IMG/VR virus record: IMGVR_UViG_3300031977_000602 | Span: 1 to 37,500 of that record | DNA: 37,500 nucleotides | From: a virus | Direction: 5' to 3' (one strand) | Shown: positions 1 through 36,931 of the stretch, one piece after another | Layout of the letters: each line of letters opens with the position of its first letter | Numbering within the stretch: position 1 is the first letter of the stretch | Notes under the pieces: model-generated | Seen by the model: the letters and a program-made list of their open reading frames with translations, nothing else | What the model was told of the DNA's origin: nothing | Database searches by the model: none | Made by a program: the position numbers and the translations under genes

Positions 1-448
1 AAACACCGGTAACCAGTCTGCTGCATCAAACACCGGTAATCGTTCTGCTGCATCAAACACCGGTAACTATTCTGCTGCATCAAACACCGGTAACCAGTCT
101 GCTGCATCAAACACCGGTAATCGTTCTGCTGCATCAAACACCGGTAACTATTCTGCTGCATCAAACACCGGTTACCAGTCTGCTGCATCAAACACCGGTA
201 ACTATTCTGCTGCATCAAACACCGGTAACTATTCTGCTGCATCAGTTGAGGGTGAACAATCGGTGGCGATTGTCACAGGGTACTACTCGAAAGCAAAAGC
301 GTCTGAAGGTTCGTGGGTGGTTATTACTGAGCGTAACGACGACTATGAAATCATCGACATCAAGACTGCCAAAGCCGGTGTTGATATTGAACCTGATACC
401 TATTACAAACTTGTCAATGGTGAGTTTGTTAAATGCGATAATGAGTAA
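1..448 (+). CDS. Partial nonapeptide-repeat phage protein (5' end outside window)
   Basis: The reading frame is open from base 2 and ends at the TAA at 446-448; the start lies left of the window. The visible part has nine 9-residue repeats of the form NTGN(Q/R/Y)SAAS, followed by a C-terminal domain of about 68 residues beginning VEGEQSVAIVTG and ending in VKCDNE. Tandem small-residue repeats of this kind suggest a beta-solenoid fold; that is inference. From memory, similar repeat-plus-cap proteins (repeats, then a conserved VEG..SVAIVTGY..KAKG..G.W..LTERD-like end) occur in other phages without a known role. The stop overlaps the ATG of the next gene (TAATG), so the two are translationally coupled and probably belong to one early operon. 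The size of the missing N-terminal part is unknown. Confidence 0.8.
   Translation, partial: NTGNQSAASNTGNRSAASNTGNYSAASNTGNQSAASNTGNRSAASNTGNYSAASNTGYQSAASNTGNYSAASNTGNYSAASVEGEQSVAIVTGYYSKAKASEGSWVVITERNDDYEIIDIKTAKAGVDIEPDTYYKLVNGEFVKCDNE
2..244 (+). repeat. Nine tandem 27-bp repeats with an 81-bp higher-order unit
   Basis: Nine in-frame 27-bp units each start AACACCGG and end TCTGCTGCATCA. Only codons 4 and 5 vary. By their variable residues the order is NQ, NR, NY, NQ, NR, NY, YQ, NY, NY. Units 1-3 (2-82) and 4-6 (83-163) are identical base for base, giving a perfect 81-bp direct repeat. The array probably continues left of the window. There are no unique spacers, so this is a coding repeat and not a CRISPR array. 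Confidence 0.95.
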
Positions 449-25635: not shown

Positions 25636-27153
25636 CTACAGGTACTCATCTGAGTCCATGTTATCTAACGGGTTGTAGTCACGTCGGTCATTGTTACGTG
25701 TGTACGGGTTGTGGTCAAGATGTCCACGTGGTACTTCACGCTTCGGAACGGGTTCAGCAAACGTCAGGTACAACGCATCAGCCCAGTCAGGTGATACACC
25801 GATACGCTTCTTCATGTCCTTCTTGCGTTCTAGCACCAGTTGGTCTTTGTCATTGTGTCCGAACTCACGTGCAGTCAGTTCAAGTTCAAGCTGTGTGTCA
25901 TTGGGGATAGCACCACCGTCTAGCAGCCACTGACGACAACGTGCGCCCATCTCAGCAGTACGCATCTTGTAGTGCTTCACATCAGCAGCATTGTCACCGA
26001 AACCAACATCAATGACATGGTAACCGAGTTGACGCAGCCGATCTGCTACCGGTCCACCCATTGAACCCTTGTCCATGAATGCAACGTCAGGTTTGTGTCG
26101 GTCAAGTATCATGGTCAGTAGTGACACGACCTTCATTGAGTCACGTGACTTCTCACCTGGTATCTTGTAAACCTTCTCTGACTTGGCATCTTTACCACGT
26201 CTGAACTGGATCATGCAGTTATCGTCACCACCACGTGCCATGTCGATACCACAGATCAACGGATCATCACCGAGATACATACCAGAACCACGACGCATTG
26301 CATCATAGACAACATCTGATGGTATGAACTGCATGTCACCACCTTTCGGGAACATGCCACGCACACGAACACGCACGAAGTCACTGTCTTCACCGAAGTC
26401 ATCTATCCAGGTCTGAATGAGTCGCTTGTTCGTCATCTTAGCTTTGCGACTGTCAATCTGTCTCGTGATCCACCGGTGACTGTTCTTCCTGAAACACTCA
26501 TAGAATGAACCATTGTTACGGGTCGGGTTACCGAAACAGATGTGCATCGGCTCACCATCAGTCAGACCACCCTTCGCAACTTCCCATATCTTTTCAGGGA
26601 TAGCTGATGCTTCATCGAATATGTAGAAAGGGGTTGAGTCAGCAGCATGAAGACCAGCGAAACCTTCTGATGCTTCTTCACGTGAGGTCAGTGCGTCGCA
26701 TCGCCACGACTTAGGATAGGCACGATGTGAAATTGACATGGTGTTCATCTCAAACCAATGACCCGTGATGCACAGTGAATGCCACTTGGAAAGCTCCGAC
26801 ATCGTTTTAGTCTTCAACTGTTCACCAGTGTTAGCTGTGACCACACCTTTACATTTAGGTCTGGTGGACATGATCCAAAGTATCACCATTGCTGTGAACG
26901 CTGACTTGCCGATACCGTGACCCGATGAAACTGCAACCTGAATAGGGTCAACAGCATCAACACCGTTGAAGCCACGTTCTTTGACTTCATCACCGAGTGC
27001 TATCAGTAATTCCTTTTGCCACTCATCAGGGGATTCAAACCCATGCAATGATGTACCTGGTTCACCCCAAGGGAACGCATACAATACAAATCCGTAAGGG
27101 TCGTCATAGAACTGACTGATCTCTTCGGCAAGGTTCACATCAATATCAGACAT
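25636..27153 (-). CDS. terL: Terminase large subunit
   Basis: 505 residues. ATPase: Walker A GHGIGKS (78-84), Walker B FYIFDEAS with D180-E181. Nuclease (RNase H-like): CGIDMARGGDD with D304, FMDKGSMGG with D361, and SPDWADAL with D459. The enzyme translocates and cuts concatemeric DNA during packaging. The ribosome binding site GGGAG lies inside the end of the HNH gene, and the starts and stops overlap. The small subunit is encoded upstream, separated by the HNH gene. Confidence 0.97.
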   Translation of the reverse strand: MSDIDVNLAEEISQFYDDPYGFVLYAFPWGEPGTSLHGFESPDEWQKELLIALGDEVKERGFNGVDAVDPIQVAVSSGHGIGKSAFTAMVILWIMSTRPKCKGVVTANTGEQLKTKTMSELSKWHSLCITGHWFEMNTMSISHRAYPKSWRCDALTSREEASEGFAGLHAADSTPFYIFDEASAIPEKIWEVAKGGLTDGEPMHICFGNPTRNNGSFYECFRKNSHRWITRQIDSRKAKMTNKRLIQTWIDDFGEDSDFVRVRVRGMFPKGGDMQFIPSDVVYDAMRRGSGMYLGDDPLICGIDMARGGDDNCMIQFRRGKDAKSEKVYKIPGEKSRDSMKVVSLLTMILDRHKPDVAFMDKGSMGGPVADRLRQLGYHVIDVGFGDNAADVKHYKMRTAEMGARCRQWLLDGGAIPNDTQLELELTAREFGHNDKDQLVLERKKDMKKRIGVSPDWADALYLTFAEPVPKREVPRGHLDHNPYTRNNDRRDYNPLDNMDSDEYL

Positions 27154-27667
27154 TCTTCAATCTCCCGTGGTTCTCGTGGAAACCGTGTTTAACTTCAGCA
27201 GACTTACGAGCACAAACAGCTTCAAAGAAATCACTGAAACGACCCAAGAACTGCTCTTTGTGGTCCACCATGATTCTGACTCTCCACTTACCTCTGCTTT
27301 CGTTCCAACTCACACCATGTAAACCACTACCATTGTTAGTCTTCAAGCTGATGTTCTTACCGTTCGTCAACCTATCTACATCACGAAGGTTACACCATCG
27401 ATTGTCAGTACCATCACCGTTGATATGGTCCACTTCTCCTACAGGGAATAATCCTGTCATGTACAGGAAAGCAAGCCGGTGAGCTTTATAGAATTTACCT
27501 AGTATGTAGATGCGTCGATACGACAATGAAGTGTTCTTGCCATTCTTTGACGTGTTACCGGCTGGTCTGCCAGCAATACACTTGCTAGACCTTGTTATAG
27601 CCCAGGTGAAGTCACCAGTATCAGGGTCATAGTGAATAATTTCTTTGAGTTGTGTTTGAGTAATCAT
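27146..27667 (-). CDS. HNH homing endonuclease inserted between terS and terL
   Basis: 173 residues. HYDPDTGDFTWAITRSSK, then YRRIYILGKFYKAHRLAFLYMTG, and the HNH core VDHINGDGTDNRWCNLRDV (catalytic DH around residues 79-80, N for metal binding), followed by NGSGLHGVSWNESRGKWRVRI, an AP2-like DNA-binding repeat (about 113-160). This is the usual HNH_3 plus AP2 layout of free-standing phage homing endonucleases. AGGTGGCACT precedes the ATG. It sits between the two terminase genes, with a large hairpin just upstream. It probably promotes its own spread, but HNH proteins near terminases can also help packaging. Confidence 0.92.
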   Translation of the reverse strand: MITQTQLKEIIHYDPDTGDFTWAITRSSKCIAGRPAGNTSKNGKNTSLSYRRIYILGKFYKAHRLAFLYMTGLFPVGEVDHINGDGTDNRWCNLRDVDRLTNGKNISLKTNNGSGLHGVSWNESRGKWRVRIMVDHKEQFLGRFSDFFEAVCARKSAEVKHGFHENHGRLKNV

Positions 27668-27769: not shown

Positions 27770-28222
27770 TTACAGGAATGAAACGTCATCATCTTCCTGC
27801 TGTGGCTTGTTAGCTTCAGAAACACGACGACGTGCAGCAACTAGGCGGTCCACCACATCAGCATCAGTGCTGACCTTGATCTTGTCAGCAGCAAAGGCAT
27901 CGACACGCTTATGCTTACCCACCATGTTCAGTGCTGTGTTACTGGCTGTGATGTTACCCTGCTGACGTGCAATCATGTGGTTGTCCACCATCTCATTGAG
28001 CAGCCAGTCAGCATCAATCATGTTCACTTCGAGTCGCTGCTGAATGATGTACTCAATAGCGTTGCTCACTTCAGGTTCTTCAAGTAACCGGTAACCATAG
28101 TCAGCAGAGTAACCTGAAGCCTCTGCTGCACGACGTGGTGCGAAATCTTTGATGTACTCCACCACGAAGCACGCCTTCTTCGGTGGTAGATTCAACTCAT
28201 CTAGTAGTCTGACCTTTATCAT
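27770..28222 (-). CDS. terS: Terminase small subunit
   Basis: 150 residues. LPPKKACFVVEYIKDF, RRAAEASGYSADYGYRLLEEP and AIEYIIQQRL match the N-terminal helix-turn-helix of the terminase_2 (PF03592) small subunits, which bind the packaging site. A WLLNEMVDNHMIARQ helix and a disordered acidic tail (about 128-150) follow. The ATG overlaps the previous gene's TGA (ATGA). The large subunit lies 617 bases downstream, separated by a hairpin and an HNH gene. Confidence 0.9.
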   Translation of the reverse strand: MIKVRLLDELNLPPKKACFVVEYIKDFAPRRAAEASGYSADYGYRLLEEPEVSNAIEYIIQQRLEVNMIDADWLLNEMVDNHMIARQQGNITASNTALNMVGKHKRVDAFAADKIKVSTDADVVDRLVAARRRVSEANKPQQEDDDVSFL

Positions 28223-28737
28223 AGGAAGCTCACTTCAGGGTTCTTTGATGCGTCAATAGCATCGTCAATATTATCATGGTAACTCAAAACTGTTTTGTTG
28301 TAATCATTGTCAACTGCTACCACCGTGAACAACCGTCTTTCATAGCTGAATGAAACCACAGTCAAACCTTTAGCACGATGCTTGTTTGACCGTTGACAGC
28401 CATAGGGTAACAAACAGATGTTGTCTACGCTGAAACGTGTCTCACCAGGTTTGATGGTCATGACTCGTTTACACGTACCTGTCTGATGCTCCCATAACAA
28501 CGGTAAAGCTCGACGTAACGAATTGTCTATCTTGATCTCATAGTCATAGCTTTGTCGTGTGGTTGTACCTGCTACAGCTCCCATCTTTGCACGACGCTTC
28601 ACAGCACCTGGTAACCGGTCAAACATTTCCTTGTTACGTGTCCACACCAGCCGCCCTGCACCGTGGTCGTAGTCGAAGAACTCAGTTAAGTAGTTCACGA
28701 TTTCATACGGTTCAATCTCTTCCATCCACCAGCTCAT
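28219..28737 (-). CDS. Degenerate HNH-like protein upstream of terS
   Basis: 172 residues, first gene of the late unit. FDYDHGAGRLVWTRNK, AVAGTTTRQSYDYEIKIDN, RRALPLLWEHQTG and VDNICLLPYGCQRSNKHR align in order with the HNH protein encoded at 27146-27667 (YDPDTGDFTWAI, RPAGNTS, YRRIYILG, AHRLAFLYMTG, TDNRWCNLRDV..TNGKN). The metal-binding DH pair is missing, replaced by TIKPGE. So the fold is probably HNH_3-like but inactive, or repurposed. GAGG lies eight bases before the ATG. A role in packaging regulation is possible but unproven. Confidence 0.72.
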   Translation of the reverse strand: MSWWMEEIEPYEIVNYLTEFFDYDHGAGRLVWTRNKEMFDRLPGAVKRRAKMGAVAGTTTRQSYDYEIKIDNSLRRALPLLWEHQTGTCKRVMTIKPGETRFSVDNICLLPYGCQRSNKHRAKGLTVVSFSYERRLFTVVAVDNDYNKTVLSYHDNIDDAIDASKNPEVSFL

Positions 28738-28804
28738 TCTTAATACCTCAGTTAATAGTTATCACCATGACAGTTTAACATAGACATTAAGATTTTGGTA
28801 AATG

Positions 28805-28834
28805 GTTATACTAAACATGTGTTCATTTTCACAA
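28805..28834 (-). promoter_or_regulatory. Candidate late promoter (TTGTGA-18-TATAAC)
   Basis: On the minus strand, TTGTGA (28829-28834), an 18-base spacer, and TATAAC (28805-28810). It would start a transcript about 60 bases before the first late gene. The -35 box is weak. It is one of two candidates in this region for the late unit. Confidence 0.4.
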
Positions 28835-28910
28835 CTGCTAATTTCCTATTTTAACTAAAAACGTGTCATAGTGGTATATATTAAGGTTTTTTCTTTAGTA
28901 AAATCAAAGG

Positions 28911-28938
28911 GTTATCTCCATGACGCAAATAGTGTCAA
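28911..28938 (-). promoter_or_regulatory. Candidate late promoter (TTGACA-16-GATAAC)
   Basis: On the minus strand, a consensus TTGACA (28933-28938), which is one of the TGTCAAA repeats read backwards, a 16-base spacer, and GATAAC (28911-28916). It would give a leader of about 165 bases ahead of the first late gene. Confidence 0.4.
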
Positions 28939-29073
28939 ACTTGTCATCGATTCGTCATGGACGTGACATCGTGACATGATAGTGTCAAATTCCATAAATC
29001 CTGTGTGAAATCAACAACTTGCAATACTGCTCCTGTGATTCCCACGTCTGAGTTACTGTCAAACTGTGTCAAA
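28929..29073. repeat. Four TGTCAAA repeats
   Basis: TGTCAAA occurs at 28933-28939, 28983-28989, 29057-29063 and 29067-29073. The first two share the longer ATAGTGTCAAA (28929-28939 and 28979-28989, exactly 50 bp apart), and the last two are 10 bp apart, one helical turn. The spacings suit a protein-binding array such as operators or iterons. Confidence 0.7.
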
Positions 29074-29158
29074 CTGTGCGAACAATCACCACTTGCACAC
29101 TCACACCTGTTGCTTGACACATTGCTTATACGTCCATGTCACGTCCATGACGAATCGA
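28947..29158. repeat. 23-bp perfect inverted repeat, arms 166 bp apart
   Basis: Arm 28947-28969 begins TCGATTCGTCATGG and ends ACGTGACAT; its exact reverse complement is at 29136-29158. Neither arm is coding. The right arm ends nine bases before the -35 box of the plus-strand promoter. It could be a pair of operators joined by a DNA loop or a large cruciform. Confidence 0.92.
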
Positions 29159-29166
29159 CTATGGCA

Positions 29167-29195
29167 TTGAAGTATCAAAACATGTCAGTTATAAT
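29167..29195 (+). promoter_or_regulatory. Sigma70-like promoter TTGAAG-17-TATAAT
   Basis: TTGAAG (29167-29172), a 17-base spacer and a consensus TATAAT (29190-29195). Transcription would start near 29202, about 24 bases before the ATG at 29226, and GAGGG sits seven bases upstream of that ATG. The long inverted repeat arm lies just upstream, so the promoter is probably regulated. Confidence 0.75.
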
Positions 29196-29225
29196 GCGGT
29201 AATGACACATTTATGAGGGTTCAAC

Positions 29226-29684
29226 ATGAGTATTTCCAAACTGGCTGACCAACTGCAAATAGACGAACATTCACTTCTAGCACTGATTGCTAAACTGAAT
29301 GATAAGCATGACATCGGGATAGAAGACACATCCAAGCTGACACCGACACAGCACAACATCATTCGTTCACTGCTTGACCCTGATTTCCTGGTGAAGTTCC
29401 TTATCGGTGATGCACCTGAGTCAAATCGATACAACTACAGCAGATCACCAGGTTACCAGCAGCTTGAACGGTGGATTGCTGCAAACAACCTGAACGGGTA
29501 CAGCACCAAGGATGTGAAGGAAGCAACACCTGAAGGTTCTAAATTTTACGGACCGCAAACCATATCGTCAGCAATGAAGGCTAACGGTTACACTATTCGT
29601 GTGATTGTTCTAGATAACGGCAAACAGGGTCGTCGTTGGTACAATGATGAGTTATGGGAACAAGACACCCCTTCCTTCTTCTAA
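29226..29684 (+). CDS. Hypothetical protein, possible regulator, 152 aa
   Basis: 152 residues with its own strong promoter. The N-terminus (SISKLADQLQIDEHSLLALI, then LTPTQHNIIRSLL) looks helical and could hold a helix-turn-helix. The second half has RSPGYQQLERWIAANNLNGY, a TKDVKEATPEGSKFYGPQTI region and a C-terminal KQGRRWYNDELW strand-like end, which looks like a second small helical/winged DNA-binding unit. It is the only plus-strand gene here and faces the minus-strand transcripts on both sides. The setting suggests an early transcription switch, but no family was recognised and DNA binding is inference. Confidence 0.8.
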   Translation: MSISKLADQLQIDEHSLLALIAKLNDKHDIGIEDTSKLTPTQHNIIRSLLDPDFLVKFLIGDAPESNRYNYSRSPGYQQLERWIAANNLNGYSTKDVKEATPEGSKFYGPQTISSAMKANGYTIRVIVLDNGKQGRRWYNDELWEQDTPSFF

Positions 29685-34241: not shown

Positions 34242-36878
34242 TCACTTCACCACAGTTAGCTGTTGCTCACCACGTGCTTCACGCATCTGACGCTCGTACT
34301 CACGGTACAACTCAGTCGATGACATAGCAGCGTAGTTCTCTTCATTACGAACTATCCAAAGACGTGCATCACTGGTGCGTATCTGTTGGTAGCTCCCAAT
34401 CTCTTTCAATAGCATCCCGATCTTCTTGTCCGTGAAGAACTTCGGATCGGTCATCATGTCAGCCGGTGTCATTGCGCCAGCTCGTAAAGTCTCACCCATG
34501 TCATTCGTGGTCAGGATGTCACAACGGAATGCACCATGTTTCTTGTTGATGAATGCTTCCAGGGTCTGCTGCATCGGTGACTTCGATGACTCTTTGATCT
34601 CACGTAGGAACTCAGTCATCGGTGGTGCTTCGTTAGGGTTGAAGCTGCTCAGGTCAACGACGTGCATCAGATGGTACACAACCGCTTTCCAACCACCTGA
34701 CTTCATCCATGTCCAACGGTCTTCCCAGTAGTCAAGCCACTCACGCTTCATGTTGTCGTGCTTGTCACGTGGGTTCAGATCTGACCATATTGCATAGAAG
34801 CGTCGTGATGGACCGTTCAAGCGTAACGGCATCACTGAGTTAGTGGTCATGGTGGCGTTCAGGATGTTGCGAACCTTGATGCGCTTAATGCCTTTCTGGT
34901 TCACAGATAGTGTTTCTGGTGGCGCAGCAGCCAGGGGTTTGAGCTTGTTACTGACAGCCATTGCTTCACGACGGTCACCAAGTTCTGTTTCATTGATGTG
35001 CAGGTACTTGGTTGACAGCACATAGTCGTTGAACCCTTCCAGCAACTCTTCACCACTGATGACGGTGTTGTTCTCACCCATTGCTTTGATGAGTGGGTAA
35101 AGTAAGAAGTCTTTACCACAACCTTCACCAGAACCTAACAGCAGCATGTGGTTGATTTTCTGATCAGGGTGACGAAGAGTGAACGCCATCCATTTTTCAA
35201 TGTGGTCACGGTGTTCTTCCCAACCGAGTGCACCGAAGTGCATGATCCAACGACTAGCGTCACCGACTTCACCATAAGACTGTGTTGCATCACTCCATGT
35301 GTTAGCGTAGCGACAACCGTTCTCGATGAAGATACGTGGTTGTTTCGGTGCGTAGTCCAGACGGTCGACCTTCTGCACACGACCTTCTTGCAGTGCAATC
35401 TTGCGTGCTTCTGCATCTTCGTGGCTGAATGAGTTCTGGAATGCTTCAGTGCTGAAGAAGATGCGTGACTCCCAGTCATAGAACTGGTTGAGTTCTTTAA
35501 CGAATACCACGTCATCATAAAATTCTGCTTTGCTTACCTTCTCACCGTACCAAGTTTTACGCAGATCGGTGATGATGTCTTTGAAGTCAGCCTTCGACCA
35601 CCGCATGATGTCCACCACGATTTCGTGCCAATGCTTCTGATCAATCTTCGGCATATCATCGGTGAACTTTAGCACCTTTGAAGCCATTTCACGCTGTTCA
35701 GTTGTACCTGGTAGCTGACGACGAAGGTTGTCACAAAGAAGCTGAAGTGCATCAGGGGTCACAGTCTCAGCAGGTGCTGGTGGCTGTGGTGCAGTTGGAG
35801 TCATGAAGCTGACTTCGTTCAACTCACTCATTGCTTGCACTGTGACAGGGTTCGGTTGAGGTGCTGCCACCGGTGGTTGAACAGGGGTCGCAGCCATAAA
35901 CGATATTGGTTCAGCAACAATGTCTAGCTCACGCATCACCTGCCAGTTCTTCAGTTTGGAGTTGAACCCTGGTTGTCTTCCTTCAATGTGACGCAGTAAG
36001 TCTGCACCAGTACGACCCTGACAAGCACCGTGGTGACATTTGAACCCCATCGTACCGTCTGAGTTTGTGAACACTGCTGATCCTGAATCGTCTTGACCAG
36101 TGTGCTCATGTACCCACGGACACGTAATGTCGAAGCGTCCGTCACTGCGAACTTCTTTAACGTGGATAGTTTCAGGGATATTGATCAGAGGGTGGTCAGA
36201 GATTTCAGCAGCACCGTCAACACGTTGTTCACGTCGCACTGCGTCAAGGTCAACAGCGAATGGTGCAGCAAGTTGTTCAAGGGTTACACGGTTGAATGGT
36301 TGCCACAGTAACATGCGACACTGGAACGGTTGACCGTTCACCAGCTTACTGGCTTTGTTATTGATGCCTTCCGGAAGTCGGACGTATCGAGTCACACCCT
36401 TCATGCCAGGGTCACGACCATCTGGTGCAAGACCGTTCGCCACCAGCCCGTCAAGCAAGTTCTCAACACGACCACGATCAGCACATGGTTCATTGAGGAT
36501 GTAACCCCATTGTTCAGAACCCACTGATGATTCAAGTATCCATGCTGGTTGCGGTAGCTTGTTCACCTCAGTCATCGACAGCTTTTCTTTCACATCGTCC
36601 AGTACAATCACCGGTGTATGTCTGAATAGAGCCTTGCGACGACGTGCCTGACCTTGTTCGTCAGCGTAGAAGTTACTGATGGTAAAATATTGATTGGTGT
36701 TAGGCGACATTCTGTAACGTGAGAAGTAGTCACCCTTCCATGCGATGAGGTGTTGATCTTTAGGAATGTTACCAGGGTCATGAGGGAAATCTGTGACATG
36801 ACACCACGGTGCATCAACACCGAAAAGAGTTTCAACGAACTCCTTATTACTAATTTTTAGGGATAATTGTTCCGTCAT
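34242..36878 (-). CDS. Primase-helicase (SF3/D5-like, DUF5906 type)
   Basis: 878 residues from the ATG at 36878 (AAGG eight bases upstream; a frame to 36908 is possible but runs into the hairpin). The N-terminal part has VIVLDDVKEKL (about 90-100), resembling an archaeo-eukaryotic-like primase region. A zinc-binding pattern follows: C253 in CPWVHEH and FKCHHGAC (279-286). A Pro/Gln-rich linker leads to the helicase with Walker A GSGEGCGKD (582-590), then STKYLHINETELGD and ATMTTNSVMPLRL (sensor region). Such proteins prime and unwind DNA at the replication fork. Confidence 0.9.
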   Translation of the reverse strand: MTEQLSLKISNKEFVETLFGVDAPWCHVTDFPHDPGNIPKDQHLIAWKGDYFSRYRMSPNTNQYFTISNFYADEQGQARRRKALFRHTPVIVLDDVKEKLSMTEVNKLPQPAWILESSVGSEQWGYILNEPCADRGRVENLLDGLVANGLAPDGRDPGMKGVTRYVRLPEGINNKASKLVNGQPFQCRMLLWQPFNRVTLEQLAAPFAVDLDAVRREQRVDGAAEISDHPLINIPETIHVKEVRSDGRFDITCPWVHEHTGQDDSGSAVFTNSDGTMGFKCHHGACQGRTGADLLRHIEGRQPGFNSKLKNWQVMRELDIVAEPISFMAATPVQPPVAAPQPNPVTVQAMSELNEVSFMTPTAPQPPAPAETVTPDALQLLCDNLRRQLPGTTEQREMASKVLKFTDDMPKIDQKHWHEIVVDIMRWSKADFKDIITDLRKTWYGEKVSKAEFYDDVVFVKELNQFYDWESRIFFSTEAFQNSFSHEDAEARKIALQEGRVQKVDRLDYAPKQPRIFIENGCRYANTWSDATQSYGEVGDASRWIMHFGALGWEEHRDHIEKWMAFTLRHPDQKINHMLLLGSGEGCGKDFLLYPLIKAMGENNTVISGEELLEGFNDYVLSTKYLHINETELGDRREAMAVSNKLKPLAAAPPETLSVNQKGIKRIKVRNILNATMTTNSVMPLRLNGPSRRFYAIWSDLNPRDKHDNMKREWLDYWEDRWTWMKSGGWKAVVYHLMHVVDLSSFNPNEAPPMTEFLREIKESSKSPMQQTLEAFINKKHGAFRCDILTTNDMGETLRAGAMTPADMMTDPKFFTDKKIGMLLKEIGSYQQIRTSDARLWIVRNEENYAAMSSTELYREYERQMREARGEQQLTVVK

Positions 36879-36900
36879 TCTTCTGACCTTAAATGTAAGT

Positions 36901-36931
36901 CTGACCAAAAGAGTTGCGGCAACCTGGTCAG
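36901..36931 (-). other. Inverted repeat in primase leader
   Basis: CTGACCA (36901-36907) and TGGTCAG (36925-36931) are perfect reverse complements, enclosing an inner GTTG/CAAC stem. In the primase mRNA this would be a 31-base stem-loop ending 22 bases before the ATG. It may tune translation or be a protein-binding dyad. Confidence 0.6.

Follow-up and report, generated by a model that had tools for sequence, protein, structure and literature searches.

The noncoding gap between two divergent genes of this phage holds two 23-bp arms that are exact reverse complements, which raises the question of what such a pair does: whether the arms act by themselves or as parts of a larger site, and which protein would read it. 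The stretch of DNA analysed (hereafter the window) covers 37.5 kb out of a 43.8-kb virus record. The inverted repeat described in an earlier note was recovered at the same place, with arms at 28947-28969 and 29136-29158, 166 nt between them, and no mismatch. A chance origin is unlikely, as that note had argued: in 20 dinucleotide-preserving shuffles of the 488-bp gap, the longest perfect inverted repeat was at most 13 nt (mean 9.1). Within the whole window, it was also the only inverted repeat of at least 17 nt with arms within 600 bp. A search of viral contigs for the exact 23-mer gave no match.

The nearest named relatives were Vibrio phages PS25B.1, 1.185.O, and 1.021.A, with MZH0603 being more distant, and the Nahant table classes those that it lists as podoviruses. 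Leftward of the gap follow P0002, the terminase small subunit (TerS), an HNH endonuclease, the terminase large subunit, and then the remaining late genes. Rightward lies the single gene P0001 (29226-29684), converging with the leftward early operon, which contains genes for dUTPase, ribonucleotide reductase, ThyX, and an 888-aa primase-helicase. The GC content of the gap was 0.37, compared with approximately 0.47 for the phage. The genes relevant to the locus are as follows.

25636-27153, minus strand: terminase large subunit
27770-28222, minus strand: terminase small subunit (Terminase_2), candidate reader of the array described below
28219-28737, minus strand: P0002, 172-aa degenerate HNH-like protein, first gene of the late operon
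29226-29684, plus strand: P0001, 152-aa protein with a predicted C-terminal winged helix, flanking the array
34242-36908, minus strand: primase-helicase (DUF5906), 888 aa, with a predicted C-terminal winged helix, rival candidate reader

The arms proved to be two members of a larger array of a short motif, referred to as motif A (ATCCATGACRCATT, half-site TGACR), which occurs in both orientations and fills the gap of approximately 490 bp. In the window, the array comprises five extended motif copies, 16 TGACR half-sites, and two sites matching the consensus of integration host factor (IHF), as listed here together with an adjoining promoter match.

28738-29225, no strand: whole array region, with 16 TGACR half-sites and two IHF-like sites, the densest cluster of the motif in the genome
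28766-28775, plus strand: A motif copy CATGACAGTT, close to where the late operon begins and also conserved in PS25B.1 and 1.185.O
28861-28870, minus strand: A motif copy TATGACACGT, outer site of the IHF module, with the same site and phasing in 1.021.A
28902-28914, plus strand: IHF-consensus site AATCAAAGGGTTA (WATCARNNNNTTR) with an A/T-rich flank; A half-sites lie 11 and 33 nt from its ends, a spacing that recurs in relatives
28919-28928, plus strand: A motif copy CATGACGCAA, inner site of the IHF module
28947-28969, minus strand: left arm of the 23-bp inverted repeat, with the A motif CATGACGAAT at 28950-28959 (minus)
29009-29021, plus strand: second IHF-consensus site AATCAACAACTTG, between the arms
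29136-29158, plus strand: right arm of the 23-bp inverted repeat, with the A motif CATGACGAAT at 29146-29155 (plus)
29167-29195, plus strand: sigma-70-like promoter match TTGAAG-17-TATAAT for the 29226 gene, conserved in PS25B.1 and 1.185.O

The core motif CCATGAC has four copies in the 488-bp gap, where its frequency in the rest of the genome predicts 0.08; for TGTCA, the corresponding figures are 13 and 2.0. Across 17 records (585 kb), 17 of the 18 matches to CCATGACRCA fell in the gap. The cleanest statistic came from a motif matrix trained on uncultured relatives only (consensus ATCCATGACACATT), since the training genomes differ from those scanned. The gap was the densest cluster of matrix matches in the window genome (8 in 500 bp; next best 4) and likewise in PS25B.1 and 1.185.O, while its lead was small in 1.021.A and MZH0603 (3 vs 2). 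No other set of short motifs in two orientations was found in the genome, the early region of which partly reads N; the other clusters were coding tandem repeats.

Among relatives gathered with TerS as the query, the array lies upstream of terS, either directly or across one small gene (P0002 in most), in the window and at least 16 relatives, comprising three named phages and at least 13 uncultured ones. TGACA-type and ATGAC motifs were enriched in this gap in nearly all relatives, most weakly in MZH0603. TerS is a neighbour conserved in each of these relatives, and the gene on the other side of the array varies.

A second conserved element, TAAGTTRYTGATTTA, fits WATCARNNNNTTR, the IHF consensus. 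It had 23 matches in 18 regions against a shuffle mean of 1.6 and a maximum of 6, figures that somewhat overstate significance, as do the other shuffle figures, because motif patterns and distance bins were picked after the sequences had been viewed. A strict match was absent in L009, L021, L024, L026, L031, L032, L034, and MZH0603. Distances between A half-sites and the IHF-like site were roughly helically phased, with 6-11, 18-23, 30-35, and 36-41 nt being preferred and no half-site at 0-5, 12-17, or 42-47 nt; 10 cases of an A half-site 29-34 nt away were counted, where the null mean was 0.05. In the commonest module, the IHF site is flanked by an inverted A half-site at 10-12 nt and, on its opposite side, by a direct A half-site at 32-33 nt. 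The window has this module at 28861-28928, adjoining the left arm. Judged from these matches and their phasing, IHF would bind at the consensus sites, and we read the array as a putative IHF-shaped nucleoprotein assembly site built of copies of a phage-specific motif.

The earlier note's reading would be refuted by arms that are lost in relatives while the surrounding genes persist, and the relatives did not show this. In the sister phages PS25B.1 and 1.185.O, a 16-bp core of the arms stays an inverted pair (GTCATGGATGCGACAC / GTGTCGTATCCATGAC) at the same spacing, 183 bp from start to start against 182 bp in the window. Relative to the window, the two arms share the same change at three core positions, and a fourth position is altered in only one arm. 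The outermost 7 bp (TCGATTC/GAATCGA) match in the window phage only and are not shared by the two sisters. Both arms are thus kept alike, whereas the full 23-bp match is specific to the window phage and probably recent. Other relatives carry perfect inverted repeats of 12-22 nt elsewhere in this gap, their starts being separated by 137-256 bp. Several of the long ones (22, 19, 14, and 13 nt) are built of motif A, and their varying positions indicate that a fixed distance between arms is no rule of the family.

These comparisons bear on a mainly mutational explanation of the perfect arms, in which template switching between adjacent inverted A sites copied the flanks and left a 23-bp identity without function beyond the A sites. 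We regard the chances for and against it as evenly balanced. It would account for outer 7 bp that match in the window phage alone, for the concerted shifts of the core in the sister phages, and for the 12-22 nt repeats at other positions in other relatives; the conservation of the array itself is left unexplained. Template switching is thus a complement to, and compatible with, any functional reading.

The position of the array between divergent genes suggests a regulatory region, in which a phage regulator on the A motifs would act with IHF to control a leftward late promoter and the rightward promoter of P0001, possibly through looping between inverted sites as the earlier note proposed. The conserved plus promoter begins 9 bp past the right arm, a late promoter could lie where an A site (28861) and an IHF site (28902) are found, and the neighbouring P0001 has a predicted winged helix. 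The two promoters claimed beside the arms fared differently. The match on the plus strand exists and is conserved in PS25B.1 and 1.185.O, but shuffles of the region yield approximately two such matches by chance. A promoter scan found none on the minus strand beside the left arm, and a TTGATT...TAATAT-like pair inside the 28861-28928 module is weak and overlaps the IHF-like site. Control of two promoters would also require far fewer sites than the array holds, and in the matrix scan motif A was not clustered at the other divergent early region. The motif is retained in more distant relatives even though their P0001 homologues share just 27-47% identity with P0001. Furthermore, no P0001 homologue was detectable in five relatives that all have the array (G003, G004, G005, G006, and G009; 33-45 kb). 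We therefore reject a lone inverted repeat read solely by the 29226 protein, the array surviving without that gene. What stands of the earlier reading is a noncoding, conserved element that looks protein-binding; arms that belong to an array do not fit two simple looping operators to which the 29226 protein would bind. Control of the late promoter ranks third, behind packaging and a replication origin, and is unlikely.

Two conserved proteins, TerS and the primase-helicase, are candidate readers. The reading narrowly favoured over an iteron replication origin is that DNA packaging starts, and is possibly cut, at the array, which would be a cosB- or pac-like site read by TerS together with IHF; on the sequence comparisons at hand, this assignment is tentative and falls short of an even chance. 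It is placed ahead because the array stays with terS while the other neighbour changes, and because its geometry is cosB-like. In the proposed mechanism, the small terminase, encoded just downstream, would bind inverted A sites, and bends at the two IHF sites would bring these sites together, so that IHF folds approximately 180-400 bp into a compact complex at which the large terminase could cut, in the manner of lambda cosB or a pac site. On this view, the two arms would be A sites with flanks copied to perfect identity over 23 bp, and they need not pair.

The likeness to lambda-type cosB concerns motif arrangement only: short sites occur in both orientations upstream of terS, and an IHF site separates flanking A half-sites of opposite orientation. 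In lambda cosB, R2 is opposite to R3 with IHF between, and in N15 an inverted rR2 lies approximately 200 bp from R3 (PMC4669245), compared with 182-183 bp for the main inverted pair of the phage array. Differences are that lambda cosB has three R sites and one IHF site, whereas the array has 16 half-sites and two IHF sites over approximately 400 bp, and that TerS of the array phage belongs to the Terminase_2 family and no cosN was identified. The array resembles SPP1- and P1-type pac sites in its clusters of short repeats, which adjoin terS and flank a central segment. Unlike in the array, the pacL and pacR repeats of SPP1 are not one shared motif, and SPP1-type small terminases bind with little sequence specificity (PMC4737164). 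This low specificity, the excess number of sites, and a mismatch between recognition helix and motif in one relative (G024, below) were counted against packaging.

In the Nahant viruses as a group, read-coverage maxima often lie near terS, which would fit a pac site at that position (PMC6029569), and this group-level remark lends weak support to packaging at the array. The record of 1.021.A ends inside the array and that of 1.185.O in P0002, with other records ending elsewhere; the rule by which the authors curated their records can explain these two ends and probably produced them, and they are not counted as independent evidence. The contig ends of the window's own record were rejected as physical ends, as they fall inside a coding 27-bp tandem repeat. 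We found no mapped start of packaging or replication for this marine Vibrio phage group, and a compact, recognisable array with IHF sites offers a direct place to test where either process starts.

As a replication origin, the array would consist of iterons (the A motifs) bound by the C-terminal winged helix predicted for the primase-helicase, with IHF and A/T-rich stretches aiding strand opening; we consider this only slightly less likely than packaging. Short repeats in two orientations, the IHF consensus, and the low GC content of the gap resemble an iteron origin, and the array is the only one of its kind found in the genome. The Rep protein of SaPI recognises iterons through its C-terminal domain (PMC7581432), and the likeness to SaPI Rep and P4 alpha origins extends to short repeats in noncoding A/T-rich DNA and a primase-helicase with a predicted C-terminal winged helix. 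SaPI origins, however, adjoin the initiator gene, being just downstream of rep, whereas the array (28.7-29.2 kb) is approximately 5 kb from the primase gene (34.2-36.9 kb). GC skew at third codon positions, used to place the origin, was uninformative and showed no clear origin at the array.

Replication is the surviving half of the earlier suggestion of a replication or recombination site. For recombination, the array resembles lambda attP in that specific sites are interleaved with IHF sites over a few hundred bp, but the phage lacks a detectable tyrosine integrase: no match to PF00589 was found in the record, one stretch of which reads N, and attP was rejected on that ground.

Distant relatives found via the primase allowed the two candidate readers to be compared. 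Their arrays carry other motifs: TTACAATGG, often palindromic, upstream of terS in G024 (L143); CGGACACT beside a recognisable TAAGTTGCTGATATACAAGGGAAA element in G023 (L152); and TATGAC in G018 and G020. TGACGGA was found in a nearer relative, G011. The motif thus switches between lineages yet is uniform within each phage. In G024 and G023, the array motif and the primase winged helix have both changed, and G018 retains part of both, which agrees with a primase-bound origin; G020 argues against it, since its TATGACA array is kept although the primase C-terminal winged helix has diverged to 23% identity. The recognition helix of G024 TerS is nearly identical to that of the window despite the quite different array motif. 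The comparison of recognition helices is therefore contradictory, with G024 speaking against TerS and G020 against the primase, and such comparisons are confounded by the physical linkage of the array to terS. The array may represent a class of phage nucleoprotein site in which a helically phased IHF framework is conserved family-wide, the motif is replaced wholesale yet uniform in each phage, and the specificity of packaging or replication is thereby particular to each lineage, perhaps with one site serving both processes, although we consider this improbable. The switch between lineages is a natural experiment in which a DNA-binding specificity and its whole set of sites change together.

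A TerS search in bacterial genome contigs gave no match, and in the distant TerL relatives HU1, BIS08P22, Carin1, HB2107-3I, phiv142-3, and PAS61 the gene order around terS differs or terS lies outside the stretch fetched. Fold searches with P0001 and with the primase C-terminal domain (Foldseek for the latter) returned weak matches only, winged-helix proteins among them. Homology between P0001 and the primase winged helix was rejected as not significant (probability 2.6%). Longer P0001 homologues (L021, L032, and L015) contain a second copy of the C-terminal winged-helix region.

Several minor features of the region were also observed. A second inverted pair in 1.185.O (24 bp, 96%; L002 30-53 and 145-168) lies around the start of the late operon; it is built on A motifs with a AATATATAC flank and is degenerate in the window. 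The HNH_3 endonuclease gene between terS and terL (27146-27667) has no counterpart at that place in PS25B.1 and is probably a homing-type insertion. An SF[LF] tail ends TerS (DDDVSFL), P0002 (NPEVSFL), and P0001 (DTPSFF), two more early proteins of PS25B.1 have ISFF or ISFM at the C-terminus, and VSFM occurs in the primase linker; these sequences may represent a docking motif common to the proteins. The two ends of the virus record fall in a single 27-bp coding tandem repeat with SNTGxxSAA units (window 1-244; L011 7076-7348), and the same repeat in Vibrio phage 1.185.O carries the annotation "CRISPR spacers", which looks like a misannotation.
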